The translations under genes were made by a program, and so were the position numbers. A stretch of DNA of 64,000 nucleotides from an uncultured Atopobiaceae bacterium (lineage in GTDB: Bacteria > Actinomycetota > Coriobacteriia > Coriobacteriales > Atopobiaceae). Under the pieces are notes generated by a model. It saw only the letters and a list, made by a program, of their open reading frames with translations. It was not told where the DNA came from and did not search any database. Numbering within the stretch: position 1 is the stretch's first letter; the number at the start of each line of letters is the position of its first letter. Below are positions 5,781-52,234 of the stretch, piece by piece. Where the stretch lies: positions 1 through 64,000 of the forward strand of contig CALUHH010000002.1 in assembly GCA_944320385.1 (NCBI GenBank), in the 5' to 3' direction.

Positions 5781-5833
5781 GCGCGCGTGCGCCAGACGGT
5801 GCACCATGCATGCTTGAAGCACATCGCCCAAAG

Positions 5834-5898
5834 TGGGACGGAAACCTCCGGGGTATCTGTCCCAAAGTGGGACAGATACCCCGGAGGTTTCCGTCCCA
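5834..5898. repeat. Perfect 31-bp palindrome with 3-nt loop
   Basis: The arm TGGGACGGAAACCTCCGGGG... (5834-5864) is matched exactly by its reverse complement at 5868-5898, with AAG as the loop. It lies between the convergent YitT-like and mfd genes. It could end transcription from either side, though it lacks a T run. The core around the centre, TGTCCCAAAGTGGGACA, resembles the GGGAC...GTCCC cores of other palindromes in the window. Confidence 0.9.
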
Positions 5899-5928
5899 AG
5901 CGCCGAAATCCCGGACGGGACGCGATTG

Positions 5929-8900
5929 TTACTCGTCGACCTCGTCGTCGCCGCCGACCTCCTCGAGAACGCCGAGCGCGGCCGGCATGACCTCCTCCTC
6001 GCTGCGGTGGAACGGGTAAGCCACCTTCTTCGTCTTGGGGTACACCAGCGCGCCGCGCTCCTTGAGCTTGAGAGCCACCGGCCGCGCGACCTCAAGCCCC
6101 TGATACATCAGGCGGCCGTTTGCCAGGCTCACCGACGAGCAGCCCAGGCGCTGCGCGCGAATGCGCACGCGGGCGCGATCGAAGAGGTTGCGCCCGGCAA
6201 GCGGCAGCGCGCCGAAGTCCTTCTCGCACTCCTGCTGGAGCTCGTCGACCTCGGCCAGGTCGACCGCCGCGGCGAGGCGGCGATACGCCAGCACGCGCTT
6301 GTCCACGTCGGGCAGGTACTCCTCGGCCAGGAAGAAGTCAGCCGGGAGGTTGATCGTGACCTCGGCCTGCTCGACCTCGCGGGTCTCGCCGCGCGCCTCG
6401 GCCACGGCCTCGCCGAGCATCTGCGTGAACAGGTCAAAGCCCACGCTCGAGAGGTTGCCGTGCTGCTCGGCACCCATGAGCGAGCCCGCGCCACGGATCT
6501 CGAGGTCGCGCATCGCGATCTTCATGCCGCTGCCCAGGTCCTGGTACTCGTTGATGGCCGTGAGGCGGTCGGTGGCCTCGGGCGTGAGCGAGACCTCGCC
6601 CGGGAACATGAAGTAGGCGTAGGCCTGCACCCGCCCGCGACCCACGCGGCCCTTGAGCTGGTAGAGCTGAGCCAGGCCCAGGCGCTGGGAGTCCTCGATG
6701 ATGAGCGTGTTGGTGCGCGGGTTGTCGATGCCGCTCTCGATGATCGTGGTGGCCACCAGCACGTCGACCTCGTGCTCCTGGAAGCGCAGCATCACGTCCT
6801 CGACCTCGCGCGCGCTCATCTTGCCGTGCGCCACCCCCACGCGGGCCTCGGGCGCGGCCTCCATCACGCGCTCGACCGCCTCGTCGATGGTGTGGACGCG
6901 GTTTGAGACGTAGTAGACCTGGCCCTTGCGTGCGAGCTCCTCGCGGATGGCGGCCGAGACCAGGTCCGGATCCCATTCGCCCACCGTCACCTTGACGGGC
7001 AGGCGCCCGGGCGGCGGCGTCATGATGAGGCTCATGTCGCGCACGCCGCTCATGGCCATCTGCATCGTGCGCGGGATGGGCGTCGCGGAGAGCGTGAGCA
7101 CGTCGACCTGCTCGCGCATGTTCTTGAGCTGCTCCTTGTGCTGCACGCCAAAGCGCTGCTCCTCGTCGATGATAACGAGGCCCAGGTCATAGGGGTTGAC
7201 GTCGGCCGAGAGCAGGCGGTGCGTGCCAATGAGCACGTCGACCGAACCGTCCGCAAAGCCCTCGAGCGCGCGGCGCTGCTGGGCCGGCGTCACAAAGCGG
7301 GAGAGCACGGCGACCTTGAGGTCAAAGGGGGCAAAGCGCGAGAAGAACGTCTCGAAGTGCTGCTGCGCCAGGATGGTGGTGGGGCAGAGCACCATGACCT
7401 GCTTGGCGTCCTGGCAGCACTTGAACGCCGCCCGCAGCGCCACCTCGGTCTTGCCAAAGCCCACGTCGCCGCAGAGCAGACGGTCCATCGGGCGGCGCGC
7501 CTCCATGTCCGCCTTGATGTCGGCGATCGCGGAGCGCTGGTCCGGCGTGAGCTCGTAGGAGAAGCTCGCCTCCATCTCCTCCTGGACGGGGGTGTCCTGC
7601 GAGAAGGCGTAGCCCGGGACGGAGCTGCGGCGCGTGTAGAGGTCCACCAGGTCGAACGCGAGCTTCTTGGCCGAGCGACGCGCCTTGCCGGTGGCGCGGC
7701 TCCAGTCCGCGGTGTTGAGGCGCGTGAGGCGCGGGCTCGCGCCGTCCGGGCCCACGTAGCGCGTGATGCGGTCGACCTGCTCGAAGGGCACGTAGAGCTT
7801 GTCGCCGCCGGCGTACTCCAGCAGGAAGTAGTCGCGCTCGCGCCCGGCGACCTCCTGGCGCACGATCTCGGCGAACAGGGCGATGCCGTGCGTAGCGTGG
7901 ACCACGTAGTCGCCGGGCTTGAACGGGAAGGTCACGCTCGTGGGGTCCACGCGCCGCGCGCGGCGGCGGTTCTTTGCGGTGCGGGCGGAGAGGTCGGAGA
8001 CCGAGAAGACCGCGAGGCTCGCCGTTGGGATCACGATGCCGGCGGGCACCGGCGCGTCGATGAAGGTGACGCGTCCGCGCTCCAGGGGCGGTACCTGCGG
8101 GTCGTTGTTCTCGGGCGCCGTGCCGAGCGACTCCACCACGGGGACGGCCTCGTCGGTGAAGCGCAGCTCGAGGGCCTCGCGCGCGGCGCGGTCGGGCACC
8201 GCGAAGAGCACCGCGGAACGGTCCGCGACGAGCTGGCGCACGCGCCCGAGCAGCTTTGCGTCGGAGCCGGCGATCTGGGGCTGACGCACGGCGAGCTCGG
8301 CGGTGGTCGTACCCGCCCCCGCGCGAAGAATGGACGAGAAGGACAGGCGCTGCTGGCAGCCAAAGTCCATCTCGCGCGGCGAGGTATAGAGGCCGTCCAG
8401 CGAAACGCGGGCCGAGCCCGCCGCGACGGAGAGCTCGTCGTAGGCGCGCATGCAGTCGTCGAAGAGGGCACGCGGCTCGGCGAGCACCACGAGGGTCTGC
8501 TGGCTGATGTGCTCGAGCGGGCTCGCGGTGGCGCCGTAGAGCTGCTGGAGGTAGCGCTCGAGGCTGGGGTCTGCCGCACGCTGACGGATGAGCTCGAGGT
8601 CGGCTGCCACCTTGCTCGACTCCTGGGCCGGCTTGAAGAGCGCGCGCTCGGCGCGGGCGACCGTCTCGTCCGTGAAGGCCATCTCGCGACAGGGGGCGAC
8701 GGTCACCGAGCGCAGCTCGCCGATGGTCTGGCCCGTCGAGGCGACCATGCGGCGCACGCGGTCGATCTCGTCGCCAAAGAACTCGATGCGGACAGGGCTC
8801 GCCGCCTGCGCGGGAAAGACGTCGACCGTGTCTCCGTGCACGTGGAATGAGCCGGGCGCGTCGACCTCGCCGTTGTCGGCGTAGCCCATGCCCACGAGCA

Positions 8901-9366
8901 GCGTAGGCACGTCCTCAAAGGGGACCTCCTCCCCCACGGAGAAGGTGCTCGAGGCGAAGTAGCCGCTCCCCTTGGGCGGGACGCGGCGCAGCAGGGCGTG
9001 GGCGGATGCCACGACCACGCACTTCTCGCCCTCGGCCAGGCGCGAGACGGCCCGGCAGCGCGCGCCGATCACGGCGTCGTCGGGGGCGGCGTCCGCCCAG
9101 GGGCGGTCCCGGCGCTCGGGGTAGCGCGCGACGACGTCCTGGCCGAGCCACGCGGCGAGCGCGCGGGCCGTGCGGTCAGCCGCCTCCTCGCCGGAGACCA
9201 CGAGCAGGCACGGGCGCGGGTCGCGCGCCCAGAGCGCCGCGAGCGCGAGCGGGCGGGCCGACTGCGCGACGGCGAGCGTAACGTCGTGTCCGGCCGCGAG
9301 CTCGCGCAGGAGCGGCGACAGCTCGGGGGCGGAGAGCAGTTGGCGAGAGACGCGATCGATGAGCAT
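5929..9366 (-). CDS. mfd: Transcription-repair coupling factor Mfd
   Basis: A 1145-residue Mfd from the ATG with GGGAGCC upstream. An upstream in-frame start would add 33 non-conserved residues. Visible parts in order: the UvrB-like N-terminal module; the RNA-polymerase-interacting region beginning around the DPTSVTFPFKPGDYVVHATHG stretch; the RecG-like helicase with Walker A GDVGFGKTEVA near residue 640, the DEEQRFG box near 733 and SATPIPRTMQ near 755; then the TRCF C-terminal domain. It displaces stalled RNA polymerase from lesions and recruits UvrA. The length is normal and the motifs are intact. Upstream lies the repeat-array region; the downstream neighbour is convergent. Confidence 0.98.
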   Translation of the reverse strand: MLIDRVSRQLLSAPELSPLLRELAAGHDVTLAVAQSARPLALAALWARDPRPCLLVVSGEEAADRTARALAAWLGQDVVARYPERRDRPWADAAPDDAVIGARCRAVSRLAEGEKCVVVASAHALLRRVPPKGSGYFASSTFSVGEEVPFEDVPTLLVGMGYADNGEVDAPGSFHVHGDTVDVFPAQAASPVRIEFFGDEIDRVRRMVASTGQTIGELRSVTVAPCREMAFTDETVARAERALFKPAQESSKVAADLELIRQRAADPSLERYLQQLYGATASPLEHISQQTLVVLAEPRALFDDCMRAYDELSVAAGSARVSLDGLYTSPREMDFGCQQRLSFSSILRAGAGTTTAELAVRQPQIAGSDAKLLGRVRQLVADRSAVLFAVPDRAAREALELRFTDEAVPVVESLGTAPENNDPQVPPLERGRVTFIDAPVPAGIVIPTASLAVFSVSDLSARTAKNRRRARRVDPTSVTFPFKPGDYVVHATHGIALFAEIVRQEVAGRERDYFLLEYAGGDKLYVPFEQVDRITRYVGPDGASPRLTRLNTADWSRATGKARRSAKKLAFDLVDLYTRRSSVPGYAFSQDTPVQEEMEASFSYELTPDQRSAIADIKADMEARRPMDRLLCGDVGFGKTEVALRAAFKCCQDAKQVMVLCPTTILAQQHFETFFSRFAPFDLKVAVLSRFVTPAQQRRALEGFADGSVDVLIGTHRLLSADVNPYDLGLVIIDEEQRFGVQHKEQLKNMREQVDVLTLSATPIPRTMQMAMSGVRDMSLIMTPPPGRLPVKVTVGEWDPDLVSAAIREELARKGQVYYVSNRVHTIDEAVERVMEAAPEARVGVAHGKMSAREVEDVMLRFQEHEVDVLVATTIIESGIDNPRTNTLIIEDSQRLGLAQLYQLKGRVGRGRVQAYAYFMFPGEVSLTPEATDRLTAINEYQDLGSGMKIAMRDLEIRGAGSLMGAEQHGNLSSVGFDLFTQMLGEAVAEARGETREVEQAEVTINLPADFFLAEEYLPDVDKRVLAYRRLAAAVDLAEVDELQQECEKDFGALPLAGRNLFDRARVRIRAQRLGCSSVSLANGRLMYQGLEVARPVALKLKERGALVYPKTKKVAYPFHRSEEEVMPAALGVLEEVGGDDEVDE

Positions 9367-9425
9367 GAGGCTCCCTTTGCATGGCTTTTGGCCGACGTCC
9401 GCTGGGACGCCGGCTGCGACGGGTG

Positions 9426-9477
9426 GTTCTTCTCGCCTATTGTAGCGGGCGGGCGGGGCGCTCACAGGTTCTTCTCG
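9426..9477. repeat. Two copies of the decamer GTTCTTCTCG, 42 bp apart
   Basis: Copies at 9426-9435 and 9468-9477 lie in the gap upstream of mfd. The second copy is mirrored by CGAGAAGAAC at 9837-9846, which is equally far from the centre of the repeat array at about 9658. The spacing between the two copies is close to the 41-bp array period. Confidence 0.7.
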
Positions 9478-9494
9478 GCAGCGACCGCAAGCAC

Positions 9495-9820
9495 GCTTAA
9501 TTATTTGCCGTGCATCCTGTAATCGCGCTCTGCCACGCTTAAAAATCGCGGCCCATCCAAGAAATCCGCCCCATCGTGCTTAAACATTGCCTCCTGTCTG
9601 GCCCGCCGCCGGCAACGGCGCTTAAACATTGCCGCGCATCCGGCGGCGATGCCCCCTCCGTTCACGTGAAGCCCCAGATGGGAGGCAATCTTTATGCGCG
9701 GGCATCCGTTTCTCCCGGATGAGAGGCGATCTTTAAGCAGCAGGGGGCACGCGGGCCAGACGCGCGGCGATGTTTAAGCACACAAGAAGCGCCCTGCCGG
9801 ATGGGTGCCAAACCCTAAGC
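9495..9820. repeat. Left mirror-symmetric array of 41-bp repeats (4 inward + 4 outward units)
   Basis: Four units begin GCTTA at 9495, 9537, 9578 and 9620. Then the orientation flips and four units end TAAGC or TATGC at 9697, 9738, 9779 and 9820. Spacing is 41 bp (42 at two steps). Each unit is about 24 conserved bases (reverse form GCTTAAANATTGCC then CCCATCCGG) plus about 17 variable bases. Matching pairs are equidistant from 9658, so the whole block is a large imperfect palindrome that could fold as DNA or RNA. No coding sequence explains it. Its right end is only 29 bp past the stop codon of the gene at 9850. Confidence 0.85.
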
Positions 9821-9849: not shown

Positions 9850-10938
9850 TCAGTCGAGACCGTACACCTCGATAGGGACCTCCTCGTACGCCCAATCTGC
9901 CTCGTTGCCCTTCTCGGCAGCGCCCTCCCTCAGCCGAGCTCGCTTCAGCCCGTCCCACGTGACGCCGTCGATGGCGTCGAGCTCCTTGCGCAGCTCGTCG
10001 CGGGCCTCCCTTCTCTTCCTTGCCGTCGCCCGCGTCATCCCGATGCGCGGGTAGCCGAGCTCGTCACGGATGATCCGCACCAGACCGTCCATGTAGTCAA
10101 GGTCGTCATAGTGCTCCTTGCGAATCTGATACTCGCTGACCCCCATTGCCTTGAGCTCATTGGTCCGGTTGGCATCCTGGACCAGCCGCACATGCTCGTC
10201 GTGCTTGCTGCCAAGGTACTCGAGGGCAGCGACGAGCCTGCCGTCCGGGGACGCAATCAGGATGTCCGGCCTGCGCACCCCCTTACTCATTCCGTCGCAG
10301 ATGCGCTGCACTTCCGTTGGCTCGTTCAAGGACAAGACGTTGAGGTTGTAGCCCCCAAGCCCAGGCCTGAGACCAAGTCGCAGCGCAAGCTTGGTTTCTC
10401 GCGGGGAGCCCGACCGCACGCAGGCCAGGGCAAGTGCACGCCGCACCATACCCGTGCCCGCGCATCTTCCCAGCTTCCCCAAATGCCTGAGGATGCGGTC
10501 GGGCGTGGTCAGAGGCTCATCTCGCTGAAACATGCCGTCTTCCATGGCATCGTTGACGGCATACGTCCCCATGAGCTCCGAGAGCAGGTACGCGAGCTCA
10601 ATCACCGTAAGGTGCGGGGCGAGCTGAACGACGACGTGCTCGGGCGAGCAGCACAGCACGCCCTCGGAAAGGGAGATCGCGGACTCGTCGGGAAGCGGGC
10701 CGCTTTGGAGGTGCGCGTGAATCGTCGGCGTCTCGAGAGCGGCCCGCCTGTCTGAGACGAGAGCGTGAAGCGGCTTTGCAAGGCCGTCGAGAAGCGACCC
10801 CATGGCAAACGGCACATCACCCTCGTCCACGCGCGAGGGCACGACCGCGGCACAGCGCTGTCCCCTCGCGAGGCGCTTGCGAAGGTCCCATCTGCGCAGC
10901 GCCTCAAGAGCCGTGGTATGTGAGAGAAGAATGCTCAT
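9850..10938 (-). CDS. Hypothetical protein with C-terminal VSR/DUF559-like nuclease fold (tentative)
   Basis: I do not recognise the whole 362-residue protein. The N-terminal two-thirds has no motif I can name, although it opens like a DNA-binding or antitoxin-type region (MSILLSHTTALEALRRWDLR) and is rich in Arg and Leu. The last third resembles DUF559/VSR-type PD-(D/E)XK nucleases: RRPDILIASPDG near residue 224, AALEYLGSKHD near 238, then QDANRTNELKAMGV and a short strand. The Asp in PDIL and the Glu in LEY could be metal ligands. There is no strong ribosome site before the ATG. It is a lone gene enclosed by the two 41-bp arrays, and CGAGAAGAAC lies 3 bp beyond its stop. A defence or selfish function would fit but is not shown. 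Confidence 0.6.
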   Translation of the reverse strand: MSILLSHTTALEALRRWDLRKRLARGQRCAAVVPSRVDEGDVPFAMGSLLDGLAKPLHALVSDRRAALETPTIHAHLQSGPLPDESAISLSEGVLCCSPEHVVVQLAPHLTVIELAYLLSELMGTYAVNDAMEDGMFQRDEPLTTPDRILRHLGKLGRCAGTGMVRRALALACVRSGSPRETKLALRLGLRPGLGGYNLNVLSLNEPTEVQRICDGMSKGVRRPDILIASPDGRLVAALEYLGSKHDEHVRLVQDANRTNELKAMGVSEYQIRKEHYDDLDYMDGLVRIIRDELGYPRIGMTRATARKRREARDELRKELDAIDGVTWDGLKRARLREGAAEKGNEADWAYEEVPIEVYGLD

Positions 10939-11197: not shown

Positions 11198-11594
11198 GCT
11201 TAGGGACTGCGGCCCATCCTCGATATTCGTCTCATGGCGCTTAGGGATCGCGGCCCATCCGACGAGACAGCCCAAGCGCGCTTAGAAAACTCGTCTTATC
11301 CGGCAAACGCGTCAGGGCGTGCTTAACATTTGCGGCCCGTCCGGGCGTGACGCCCCCAGGTCGCTTAGAGATCGCGGCCCATCCGAGCGGAACGCGCTCA
11401 TGGCCGTCTGATAGGGGGCAATCTTTAAGCGAAAAGGAGCGCTCGGGCCGGACGGGAGGCAATCCTTAAGCAAAATGGAGCGCTCGGGCCGGATGGGAGG
11501 CAATCCTTAAGCACGGGCACCCGTTCTTTCCGGATGAGAGGCAATCTTTAAGCAGCAGGGGGCGCGCAGGCCGGACGCGCGGCAATGGTTAAGC
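11198..11594. repeat. Right mirror-symmetric array of 41-bp repeats (5 inward + 5 outward units)
   Basis: Units begin GCTTA at 11198, 11239, 11280, 11321 and 11363, then end TTAAGC at 11430, 11471, 11512, 11553 and 11594. Steps are 41 bp (one of 42). All five pairs are centred on 11396. The outward units read CCGGATGGGAGGCAATC then CTTAAGC, with 17-bp spacers. Two adjacent spacers (11431 and 11472) are nearly identical to each other, and others match spacers in the left array. CGAGAAGAAC at 11626-11635 follows the block. Confidence 0.85.
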
Positions 11595-11674: not shown

Positions 11675-14600
11675 CTACTTGAGTGCCCGGCCGCTCTTCT
11701 CGGCCAGGTCGCGCAGGCGCTCGGACGCGGCGTCGACGTCGGCCCAGTCGGCCTGCCAGGACCAGTTGCCCTCGGCGACGCCGGGCACGTTCATCCGCGC
11801 GTCGTCATCCAGCCCCAAGACGTCCTGGAGCGGCATGATGACCACGTCGGCGTCGGACGCCAGCGCCTTGCGCGCGAGCTCGTCGGCCAGCACCACGGCC
11901 TCGTCGCCCTCGACGCCAAAGCGACTCTCGCAGAAGCCCACGAACGTCTGGTTGTCGTGCGTGCCCGTGTAGCAGACGGTCTCCGGACGCGGCGCGTAGC
12001 CGTCGCGCACGTCGTTGTCGGCGAACTGGACCACGTCCATGCCCGGGATGCCCGTCGCACAGACGAGCGCTCGCACGGCCGGGGTGATGGCGCCGAGGTC
12101 CTCCGCGATGAAGGGCAGCGGGCCAAACTGGCGATGCGCCGCCTCGAAGAGCTCCATGCCCGGGCCAAAGGAGTACGACCCCTCGGTCGCGGGCTTTCCC
12201 GCGGGGACCGAGAAGTACGAAGAGAACCCGATGAAGTGGTCGAGGCGCACGTAGTCGTAGAGCGCGAGCGCGCGGCTGAAGCGGCGCAGCCACCAGCCGA
12301 AGTTCTGCTCGCGCAGGATGTCCCAGCGATAGGTGGGGTTGCCCCAGACCTGGCCCTCGGGCGCGAAGGCGTCGCCGGGGGCGCCGGCCATGCGGCGCGC
12401 GTACCCATATTCGTCAAGATCGAAGATGTCGGGCTCGCTCCACACGTCGGAGGAGTCGCCCGAGACGTACATCGGCATGTCGCCGACGATCTGGACGCCG
12501 CGCTCGCGCGCGTACTCGCGCAGCTCGTTCCACTCGCGGTCGAACTCGTACTGCAGGCGCCGGTGGTTCTCGGCCGCCGCCGCGATGCGCGGGTTGCGCG
12601 TGTGACTGGGGCTGTAGTGGCGGTAGCGCGCAGGCCAGCACTGCCACGGGGCCCCGCCCAGCACCTCCTTGATGGCGCTGAAGATCGCGTAGGGCGTCAG
12701 CCAGTAGTCGTTCTCGCTGCAGAACTGGAGGTAGTCCTCGTTGTTGCCGATCTTCTCGAGGCGCTTGAGGACCGTCTCGACGTCATCCTCGAGCAGCGCG
12801 ACGTTGCCCGCGAACGCCGAGACGCCCGCATACGGGGAGCCGTACTCGTCGGTGGGGTTGACGGGCAGGACCTGCCAGTAGGTCTGGCCGCCCGCGGCGA
12901 GCCAGTCCACGAAGCGCCTGGCCGGCGCACCGAGCGTTCCGGGCTTGCCGTCGTTGGGGATGGAGGTGATGTGGCAGAGCACGCCCATGCCGCGGTCGAG
13001 CGGCTGCTGGAGGCGCTCGGGACGATGGAAGTGCAGCACCGCCGTGCCGAGCGGCCAGAGGAAGATCTCGGCCTGTCCGCCGCTCACCTTGGGCGTCTGC
13101 CCGGAGATGACGTCTGCGACGGCGTCGCCGACCATGGGGACCTTGACGGTGTGGGCGTTGGCGAGGCTGCCGTTGGCGAGCACGCAGACCGCCTCGTCCT
13201 TGTCGCGACGCCAGAAGCCAAAGATGTCCTCGCCGGAGGCGAAGGGCTCGAACTCGCCGTCCACGAACAGCGACAGCGTCTTGCGCACGGCGATGGCGTT
13301 GCGATAGATGTTGACGCAGTCCGCGCGGCCGCCGTCCCAGGGGAAGGGCGCGCGGTTGTACGGGTCGCGGAAGCCCTCGACGCCGCGCTCGTCACCGTAG
13401 TAGACGCACGGGACGCCCGGCAGCGTCATCTGCAGCAGAGCGACGACCCACAGACGCGCCATGGCAAGACCCGCCTGGTCGTCGCTCAGACGAAACGTCG
13501 CGCGCTCGCCCTCGGGCACGGAGTCGGGGTCGGGCGCGCCGCCGAGCATGGTGAACAGGCGCTCGCGGTCGTGGCTGCCGATGAGGTTGAGCGCGGAGTA
13601 GAAGTTGTCGCGCGGGTAGTTCTCGCGCAGCTGCTCGAGGCGGGCGGCAAGCTCGGACGCCCCGATCTCGCCGCGAATGAAGGCGAGAAGTCCCGTGCGA
13701 AGCGGGTAGTTCATCGTGCCGTCGAGCTCGGCCCCCTGGAAGTACTGGCGCAGCTTGCCGTAGGCGAGCTTGTTGGACGCGTCCTCCCAGACCTCGCCGA
13801 TGAGCACGCCGTCGGGCTTCTCGGCGAGAAGGGCGCGCTTGATCTGGGCGATGAACTCGTCGGTGAGCTCGTCGGCAACGTCCAGGCGCCAGCCACGGGC
13901 GCCGGAGCGCAGCCACCGGCGTATGACGCCGTCGCGCCCGCACACGAGCTCGTGGAACGGCGCGCAGTCGGCGCGGAAGCTCGGGAGGTTCTGGTCGCCC
14001 CACCAGCCGGCGTAGGTGCCGTCCTCGTTGAAGGTGAACCAGTCGCGATACGGCGAGCGCTCGCCCTGCCAGGCGCCGGGCTCGCGATAGGTGCCGAAGC
14101 GATTGAAGTAGCGCGAGTCGGCGCCGCAGTGGTTGAAGACGCCGTCCAAGATGACGGAGATGCCGTGCTCGGCCGCGTCAACGCACAGGGCGCGGAAGCT
14201 CTGCTCGTCGCCGAGCATGGGGTCGATGCGCAGGTAGTCGGCCGTATCGTAGCGATGGTTGCTCGCGGCCTCGAAGACGGGGTTGAGGTAGAGCACCGTC
14301 ACGCCGAGGCTCTCCAGGTAGTCCAGCCTCTCGCGGATGCCCTCGAGCGTGCCGCCGTAGAAGTCCCAGTACGCGATGCCGCCGTCCTCGGTCCGGGCGT
14401 AGGTCGGAGGGGTGTCCCAGTCCTCGACCAGCTCGCGGCCGGGGCCGCCCTTGCGCCTGATCGCCAGCGAGGCTTCGACGCGATCCCTCCAGTCGTCGCC
14501 GCGGGCAAAGCGGTCCGGAAAGATCTGGTAGACCACGCCCTCGCGGTACCAGCGGGGCTGGTTGGGCCGCGGCTGGTAGACTGTGATCTGAAACGACGGC

Positions 14601-14935
14601 GGGTCGCCATAGGTGAAGGCGCCCTCGCCGGTGGTCCAGCCCTCGCGCGCGCCGTAGCGCCACACGGCGCCGTCGCGCGCCTCGATGTCGAAGTTGTACC
14701 AGACGACGCCGGTCTCGACCGGCCTGTAGCTCGCCGTGAAGCGCAGATGGTCGCCCTCGTTGGTGCCGCGCATGTCGATGAGCTGCTCGCCGTGAGCGTC
14801 GGTCCAGACGCGCAGCGTGCAGAAGACGACGTCGTCGCCCCACACGTCTATGCTCAGCGAAACGGTGCCGCCCAACTGGACGGCACCGAAAGGACTTCTG
14901 TACTCCGGCTCTGAAGTGACGTGACGTGCTTTCAA
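11675..14935 (-). CDS. Bifunctional GH13 alpha-glucan hydrolase fused to GH77 4-alpha-glucanotransferase
   Basis: One 1086-residue frame holds two enzymes. Residues about 1-110 form a beta-rich N-terminal domain as in neopullulanases. The GH13 barrel follows with GWRLDVADEL (nucleophile Asp), VLIGEVWED (acid/base Glu) and NLIGSHDRER (transition-state Asp). From about residue 640 (GMGVLCHITSIPND) the protein is MalQ-like: VRLDHFIGF, PFIAEDLG and YTGTHDNQTF carry the GH77 catalytic acids. Together they would trim and rearrange maltodextrins released from glycogen. The start is TTG, 3 bp after the glgA stop, with AAGAGATAGGT upstream; the first Met lies well inside the N-terminal domain. It is the last gene of the glycogen operon. 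CGAGAAGAAC lies about 40 bp beyond its stop. Confidence 0.93.
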   Translation of the reverse strand: MKARHVTSEPEYRSPFGAVQLGGTVSLSIDVWGDDVVFCTLRVWTDAHGEQLIDMRGTNEGDHLRFTASYRPVETGVVWYNFDIEARDGAVWRYGAREGWTTGEGAFTYGDPPSFQITVYQPRPNQPRWYREGVVYQIFPDRFARGDDWRDRVEASLAIRRKGGPGRELVEDWDTPPTYARTEDGGIAYWDFYGGTLEGIRERLDYLESLGVTVLYLNPVFEAASNHRYDTADYLRIDPMLGDEQSFRALCVDAAEHGISVILDGVFNHCGADSRYFNRFGTYREPGAWQGERSPYRDWFTFNEDGTYAGWWGDQNLPSFRADCAPFHELVCGRDGVIRRWLRSGARGWRLDVADELTDEFIAQIKRALLAEKPDGVLIGEVWEDASNKLAYGKLRQYFQGAELDGTMNYPLRTGLLAFIRGEIGASELAARLEQLRENYPRDNFYSALNLIGSHDRERLFTMLGGAPDPDSVPEGERATFRLSDDQAGLAMARLWVVALLQMTLPGVPCVYYGDERGVEGFRDPYNRAPFPWDGGRADCVNIYRNAIAVRKTLSLFVDGEFEPFASGEDIFGFWRRDKDEAVCVLANGSLANAHTVKVPMVGDAVADVISGQTPKVSGGQAEIFLWPLGTAVLHFHRPERLQQPLDRGMGVLCHITSIPNDGKPGTLGAPARRFVDWLAAGGQTYWQVLPVNPTDEYGSPYAGVSAFAGNVALLEDDVETVLKRLEKIGNNEDYLQFCSENDYWLTPYAIFSAIKEVLGGAPWQCWPARYRHYSPSHTRNPRIAAAAENHRRLQYEFDREWNELREYARERGVQIVGDMPMYVSGDSSDVWSEPDIFDLDEYGYARRMAGAPGDAFAPEGQVWGNPTYRWDILREQNFGWWLRRFSRALALYDYVRLDHFIGFSSYFSVPAGKPATEGSYSFGPGMELFEAAHRQFGPLPFIAEDLGAITPAVRALVCATGIPGMDVVQFADNDVRDGYAPRPETVCYTGTHDNQTFVGFCESRFGVEGDEAVVLADELARKALASDADVVIMPLQDVLGLDDDARMNVPGVAEGNWSWQADWADVDAASERLRDLAEKSGRALK

Positions 14936-30998: not shown

Positions 30999-31124
30999 AA
31001 CTCCCAAACTTCTGTACTTTGGGAGTGCACTTAAAATCGGGGCTTTGCGTTTGCGCAGGTAGACAGGTCGACCGTTCTTCTTGCCCCGGTAGGTGCGTCT
31101 GTAAAGCACAGAAGTTTGGGAGTT
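30999..31124. repeat. 126-bp palindromic element, family A copy 1
   Basis: AACTCCCAAACTTCTGTAC (from 30999) is repeated inverted, with one mismatch, at the right end (31104-31124). The interior contains GGTCGACCGTTCTTCTTGCC. A second copy with the same arms and a related interior lies at 52108-52234. It fills most of the gap between dnaX and the PH-domain gene. GTTCTTCTCG lies to its left (30947) and CGAGAAGGAC to its right (31147). Confidence 0.8.
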
Positions 31125-38248: not shown

Positions 38249-38349
38249 CCAAACGTCACAGCTAGTGGTACGTACCACCAGTAGAGTGTGGAGTTCTTAT
38301 CGGTAGCGTATAATTTATTTTTTCTAGTGAGACTACCTGTGACGTTTGG
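38249..38349. repeat. 101-bp AT-rich element with 13-bp perfect terminal inverted repeats
   Basis: CCAAACGTCACAG (38249-38261) is inverted at 38337-38349. Inside is the perfect palindrome GTGGTACGTACCAC (38265-38278) and an AT-rich stretch (TATAATTTATTTTTT near 38310) unlike the surrounding GC-rich DNA. No reading frame. It resembles a small non-autonomous insertion (MITE-like), but no target-site duplication is obvious. Confidence 0.6.
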
Positions 38350-40256: not shown

Positions 40257-40280
40257 GGGGCCTCCCTCACTCAGAATGAG

Positions 40281-40305
40281 TCAAAAGGGGTCTGTCCCCT
40301 TTTGA
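40281..40305. repeat. Palindrome TCAAAAGGGG...CCCCTTTTGA near a stop codon
   Basis: Ten-base arms with loop TCTGT. CCCCTTTTGA is repeated once more directly after it (40307-40316), abutting the stop of the DUF362 gene. It probably terminates that transcript. Confidence 0.7.
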
Positions 40306-40316
40306 CCCCTTTTGAA

Positions 40317-41563: not shown

Positions 41564-41584
41564 AATTGGGGACTGTCCCCAATT
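41564..41584. repeat. Palindrome AATTGGGGAC-T-GTCCCCAATT
   Basis: Perfect 10-bp arms around a single T. It has the same GGGGACTGTCCCC core as the next palindrome but different outer bases. It lies upstream of the DUF362 gene. Confidence 0.75.
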
Positions 41585-41591
41585 AACAGAA

Positions 41592-41620
41592 GGGCCGCCG
41601 GGCGAGAAACCCGGCGGCCC
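41592..41620 (-). terminator. Hairpin downstream of pgi
   Basis: GGGCCGCCGGG and CCCGGCGGCCC form an 11-bp perfect stem (loop CGAGAAA), 34 bp past the pgi stop. No strong T run. Confidence 0.6.
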
Positions 41621-41629
41621 GAATGAGTC

Positions 41630-41650
41630 AAAAGGGGACTGTCCCCTTTT
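41630..41650. repeat. Palindrome AAAAGGGGAC-T-GTCCCCTTTT next to the pgi stop
   Basis: Perfect 10-bp arms. On the minus strand the T run lies just after the stem, 4 bp past the pgi stop codon, so it can act as a terminator. Confidence 0.75.
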
Positions 41651-52107: not shown

Positions 52108-52234
52108 GAAACCCCAAACTTCTGCACATTGCGCGGGACCCTCAAATGGGGGCCCGCGTTTTCCCAGCTCACGGGTTCGACCGTTTTTCTCGCCCATCGT
52201 GTGGCGGCAACAATGTACAGAAGTTTGGGGTTTC
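52108..52234. repeat. 127-bp palindromic element, family A copy 2
   Basis: GAAACCCCAAACTTCTGCAC (from 52108) is repeated inverted with one mismatch at 52211-52234. The inner sequence GGTTCGACCGTTTTTCTCGCC corresponds to that of the copy at 30999. Its arms share CCCAAACTTCTG with the first copy. It lies between the convergent murT-gatD and nifJ genes, with CTTCTCG to the left (52042) and CGAGAAGGAC to the right (52303). Confidence 0.8.

Follow-up and report, generated by a model that had tools for sequence, protein, structure and literature searches.

A putative VSR/DUF559-type nuclease gene bracketed by phased repeat arrays that recur across an uncultured Atopobiaceae genome

The window analysed here is a 64,000-nucleotide stretch of an uncultured Atopobiaceae genome of 2.24 Mb in 58 contigs. 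At 9850..10938, on the minus strand, it carries a gene for a 362-aa protein with the segments PDILI (residues 224–228), ALEYLGSKHD (238–247) and DANRTNELKAMG (255–266). The preliminary description had reported this reading frame between two arrays, and both the frame and its setting are confirmed. A nuclease-type domain (VSR/DUF559) is predicted at residues about 170–300, with E181, D225, E240, H246 and D255 as its candidate residues; the N-terminal part has no family assignment. To the left lies a minus-strand gene that we take to be mfd, the transcription-repair coupling factor (5929..9368), a neighbour of the module conserved across many congeners, and to the right, also on the minus strand, a conserved gene that is presumably amylase/4-alpha-glucanotransferase-like (11675..14935). 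Just downstream of mfd, at 5827–5899, is a partly palindromic tandem repeat with unit CCCAAAGTGGGACAGAAACCCCGGAGGTATCCGT.

Both arrays are intergenic and convergent, a run of direct units being followed by a run of inverted units with a period of 41 bp, and each unit consists of a 24–25 nt motif, YGCTTAARGATCGCNNCCCRTCCGG, and a variable spacer of 16–17 nt. The left array (9495..9820) has direct units at 9495, 9537, 9578 and 9620 and inverted units at 9674, 9715, 9756 and 9797; its core, 9537–9820, reads +++----, with one further direct unit at 9495. The right array (11198..11594) reads +++++-----, with direct units at 11198, 11239, 11280, 11321 and 11363 and inverted units at 11407, 11448, 11489, 11530 and 11571. 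It had been suggested that the protein may act on these arrays by cutting, copying or binding hairpins. Opposite spacers in window-type arrays are no more alike than non-opposite ones (40% versus 39%), which disfavours hairpin models, and the DNA fold of the arrays is unremarkable (z −1.63); we have rejected both RNA and DNA hairpins. A separate short element, GGTTCTTCTCG/CGAGAAGAACC, occurs at 9424–9490, 9836 and 11630, and recurs near array edges, within spacers and by the mfd promoter in many congeners. In arrays the density of GAGAAG/CTTCTC is about double that of the window (5.1 versus 2.3 per kb). As element ends, CTTCTCG/CGAGAAG proved too inconsistent, being present on both sides in 4 of 30 arrays (control 1%).

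The window motif is widely dispersed. A pattern search returned 247 matches genome-wide and none with the reversed control pattern, and a profile search gave 363 matches in the fetched array loci and none in shuffled window sequence; the arrays are not due to chance. The genome holds at least 43 window-type arrays (about 45), with about 360 sites. All 43 have at least five units, direct units always stand ahead of inverted ones, and the commonest distances between the starts of the two inner units are 44 and 55 bp. By heuristic gene calls, all arrays fall outside genes, and divergent genes flank only 4 of 30. Searches of the arrays against phages and plasmids gave no match. Among the roughly 45 arrays, just the bracketing pair is accompanied by the gene. 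The spacers of dispersed copies are unrelated to one another, so these are not plain recent duplicates.

The protein had been described as an orphan, a label that does not hold: the genome has about ten paralogues, several genomes hold two or more close paralogues, and orthologues at 36–62% identity occur in nearly all congeners. The window protein alone gave no family match above the cut-off. Family members match Pfam DUF559 (6.8e-11) and the MTES_1575 REase (8.8e-8), which has been described as a Vsr-type REase domain (PMC3710099). The best PDB match of the family profile is I-Bth0305I (PDB 3r3p, E 4.2e-5), with weaker matches to the endonuclease-like 3hrl and to PvuRts1I. Five residues, S178, G196, D225, H246 and D255, do not vary among 42 diverse members, and three more, E181 (at least 90%), Y241 and R258, are almost as constant. 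These matches and invariant residues bear out the DUF559/VSR-like C-terminal nuclease domain that had been proposed, an assignment of fold that rests on sequence profiles, since an AlphaFold run with two sequences gave a pLDDT of 37.7. The residue order E181-D225-(E240)-H246-D255 fits the name of the EDxHD family of I-Bth0305I, members of which dimerise on a target of nearly 60 bp (PMC3943268), and the active site may be the same. Relatives of the protein were absent from viral contigs and phages, and plasmids gave one distant Collinsella record.

Linkage of these genes to bracketing motifs was scored as the best 24-mer common to the left and right flank, with score and thresholds devised here. 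The linkage is systematic. The median score of 67 family members is 39.6, against 19.7 for flanks of different members, and 79% of them exceed 30, compared with 3.6% of 249 random blocks. Ordinary genes rarely reach such values: of 440, 3.0% exceed 30 and 0.9% exceed 34, and of the 106 that have intergenic DNA to both left and right, 4.7% and 2.8% do so. When remote members and re-called boundaries are included, the rates for 90 family genes are 61% (>30) and 57% (>34). Of 20 homologues belonging to other genera, families or orders, 7 score above 30; by this measure the remaining 13, like about one fifth of the members within the genus, lack a two-sided shared motif. At least four DUF559-like genes from distant actinobacterial families show the same anatomy, with matched spacings of 36/36, 40/40, 29/29 and 49/49 bp. 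Four unrelated control genes are also bracketed by palindromes, so bracketing alone is no proof of a cognate relation, and the case for one rests on the whole pattern. In another genome (G006, L168:5165-6598), copies of ACAGTGTCGTTTTCCTGTCGCGACATTGTCGCAAG stand on both sides of a Schlafen/AlbA_2-domain gene.

The preliminary description proposed to check whether homologues in other genomes lie next to GCTTAAA-type arrays. The arrays are there (the 79% above), and the motif is not: 60 relatives have hardly any copies of the window motif, because motifs differ between species and between paralogues. A motif-free search for any 41-bp periodicity found orthologues elsewhere bracketed by different motifs, and a looser pattern, GCTTA three times at 41–42 bp, is frequent in several congeners. 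A search confined to GCTTAAA would wrongly resemble a refutation, as arrays elsewhere carry gene-specific motifs.

Within the genome, too, different paralogues carry different motifs. In about 415 kb of sequence and in pattern searches, six other paralogues also have copies of their motifs at a distance from the gene, in inverted pairs or small arrays whose spacing is mostly that found beside the gene, such as 102 bp or 71 bp. The window itself holds two stand-alone inverted pairs (30999..31124 and 52109..52233) with the motif of paralogue G000:C6:6160-7320, the first spaced at 102 bp start to start, as at the gene, and one 71-bp pair (38252..38346) with the motif of G000:C1:176799-177914. One paralogue's motif has 21 sites in this genome and 0–7 in relatives. 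In another genome (G001), where two orthologues have two motifs, these motifs recur at dispersed positions 31 and 58 times; G010 also has many copies of each (22 and 33), and the remaining genomes searched have next to none. Motif similarity follows protein identity: it stays at background below 50% identity, whereas most pairs above 70% have similar motifs (Mantel r 0.26; largest of 2,000 permutations, 0.268). Same-strand spacings cluster at 30–31, 41–42, 62 and 83 bp, and the 10.5-bp phasing (R = 0.74, p about 4e-23) points to a protein bound on one face of the helix. In a further genome (G029) about 20 arrays carry a GCTTACGAAACC...GTTGCG motif (for example, G029:C22:54885-55162) that is absent from all three family genes fetched; the cognate gene may have been lost, left unassembled or not been among those fetched.

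The module often sits between mfd and the glucanotransferase-like gene, and between species the gene is 66–70% identical, against about 80%–88% for its neighbours. In one genome (G012) the mfd site is occupied by a lone array whose type is found on both sides of the gene elsewhere; other species have different palindromes, other genes or no such element there. In G018 (L216, G018:C1) an unrelated RHS-repeat/zinc-ribbon gene lies there between two copies of a GATTAACGCGCACAG palindrome, and in G016 (L217, G016:C3) one copy is present without a gene; the site looks like a hotspot for palindrome-bracketed cargo. The arrays seem to be rewritten quickly, with motif and phase kept, since in one well-aligned intergenic slot, whose flanks are 94% identical in two sister species, the motif type is the same and the spacers are essentially unrelated. 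Another slot is nearly identical in this genome and G016 (97.7% over the region), which indicates that the rate of rewriting varies or that this stretch was recently exchanged.

The reading that we favour, with a probability of roughly 0.6, is that each protein recognises its own arrays and that its nuclease drives their turnover and spread, following the logic of REPIN-RAYT systems with an unrelated enzyme. The gene product would bind DNA in a sequence-specific manner and carry a VSR/EDxHD-type nuclease domain; it would recognise a site of about 24 bp and occupy inverted pairs or convergent arrays as a helically phased multimer. Each paralogue and each species would have its own protein–motif pair, the two partners changing together. 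Most likely the nuclease would nick or cut at its own arrays, and the ensuing repair or recombination would extend, shrink, replace and occasionally spread them. Bracketing, the match of one gene to one motif, dispersal, phasing, fast turnover and conserved catalytic-type residues can be read from the sequences themselves. Recognition of its own arrays by the protein is strongly suggested; direct binding, cleavage and copying of arrays are what we infer. With its rapid evolution and its scattered matching repeats, the gene resembles part of a self-spreading DNA system.

The same conservation of motif and helical phase, with variable spacers, would be expected of protein-binding sites under selection, and all arrays are intergenic. 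The proteins might then form a non-mobile network that binds dispersed phased arrays and organises the chromosome or regulates genes, the brackets serving autoregulation or insulation and the nuclease domain serving binding only. We consider this unlikely, although it is the strongest of the alternatives: the catalytic-type residues are invariant, closely related species have different motifs, the gene changes far more quickly than the genes beside it, few arrays (4 of 30) lie between divergent genes, brackets stand on both sides of the gene, and the genome would have to maintain about ten orthogonal systems.

The lone array at the G012 mfd site, the relation of the domain to the EDxHD homing endonuclease I-Bth0305I and the close paralogues in several genomes could instead indicate a homing-like cassette, in which the protein targets the array, cleavage lets the gene recombine into a lone one to give array–gene–array, and lone arrays are empty or vacated targets. 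This is more doubtful still. Of the roughly 45 window-type arrays the gene is present at one bracketing pair, orthologues are mostly at one conserved site, sites survive insertion of the gene, and the arrays are so abundant and species-specific that a separate means of spread would be needed. The family and the EDxHD homing endonucleases share a related nuclease domain, with acidic and histidine residues in matching order. They differ in that the gene here is not in an intron or intein and is surrounded by many intact presumed sites, and in that its N-terminal part is unrelated by the searches made. Neither the gene nor an intron or intein of its own interrupts its target; the gene is intergenic, with intact sites flanking it.

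MTES_1575-type Vsr domains occur in proteins proposed for defence (PMC3710099), and an AbiEi/DUF559-like component of a defence or toxin–antitoxin system, with the palindromes as autoregulatory operators only, would be one such role. It is very improbable here, there being no PADLOC match and no partner toxin gene (the neighbours are mfd and the glucanotransferase-like gene in many species), and the sites being dispersed genome-wide with brackets on both sides. We reject as barely credible the view that the arrays belong, as REPINs, to a RAYT (Y1 transposase) encoded elsewhere and that the nuclease gene is a bystander: the genome does encode four Y1 proteins, but the flanks of the three Y1 loci read contradict the idea, having other palindromes (GGGGACAG type or similar) and no window-type motif, and across dozens of loci the matching two-sided motif is at family genes, not at Y1 genes.

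Under the favoured reading of self-recognised, nuclease-rewritten arrays, the closest parallel is REPIN-RAYT, in which REP doublets are associated with tyrosine transposases (PMC3116915, PMC2817692). In both, a distinct single-copy gene stands between inverted repeats of a class peculiar to it, inverted doublets or clusters of these repeats are scattered through extragenic DNA, and protein and repeat appear to co-evolve. The differences are these: RAYT is a Y1 HUH transposase and the enzyme here is predicted to be of VSR/DUF559 type, with no Y1 match for the protein or family in the searches made; the sites, set in helical phase, form pairs or convergent arrays of several units, their spacers vary, and there is no conserved hairpin; and protein and motif diverge much faster at a fixed locus. 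With another enzyme and no hairpin, this is not a REPIN-RAYT member. CRISPR arrays share short repeats, variable spacers and a fixed period, whereas the repeats here are degenerate and in both orientations, form about 45 small arrays per genome and, at the window locus, have no cas genes as neighbours. By homologue matches the C-terminal domain belongs with DUF559/REase_MTES_1575 proteins, for which bracketing and dispersed matching arrays were not found described in the open-access literature searched. No prior description of such a system was found there either; most subscription papers and preprints lay outside the search, so its novelty is provisional.

On a broader view, for which we see the chances as even, these would be Actinomycetota-wide elements, selfish or domesticated, whose VSR/DUF559-type nucleases spread their own arrays of paired sites and keep rewriting them, with about ten orthogonal nuclease–site pairs per genome, and they would amount to an independent invention of the REPIN-RAYT strategy. 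Such a conclusion would give a context to DUF559/MTES_1575-type proteins, which are recurrent in actinobacteria and mostly unassigned, would account for the species-specific intergenic repeats of this bacterial group, and would show that systems of a gene plus dispersed palindromes arose more than once with unrelated enzymes. It would also offer a large natural set of quickly changing protein–motif pairs, with a specificity of roughly 24 bp, useful for learning how proteins read DNA.

Other palindromes are present in the same window. Those of GGGGACAG type (CAAAAGGGGTCTGTCCCCTTTTG), at 40270–40316 and about 41570–41640, bracket a DUF362 ferredoxin gene, and similar ones flank the genome's Y1 (RAYT-like) genes (L236, L237, L238), for which reason they look like ordinary REPINs. 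A canonical REPIN-RAYT system, with palindromes of its own at the Y1 loci, thus seems to live beside the new one.
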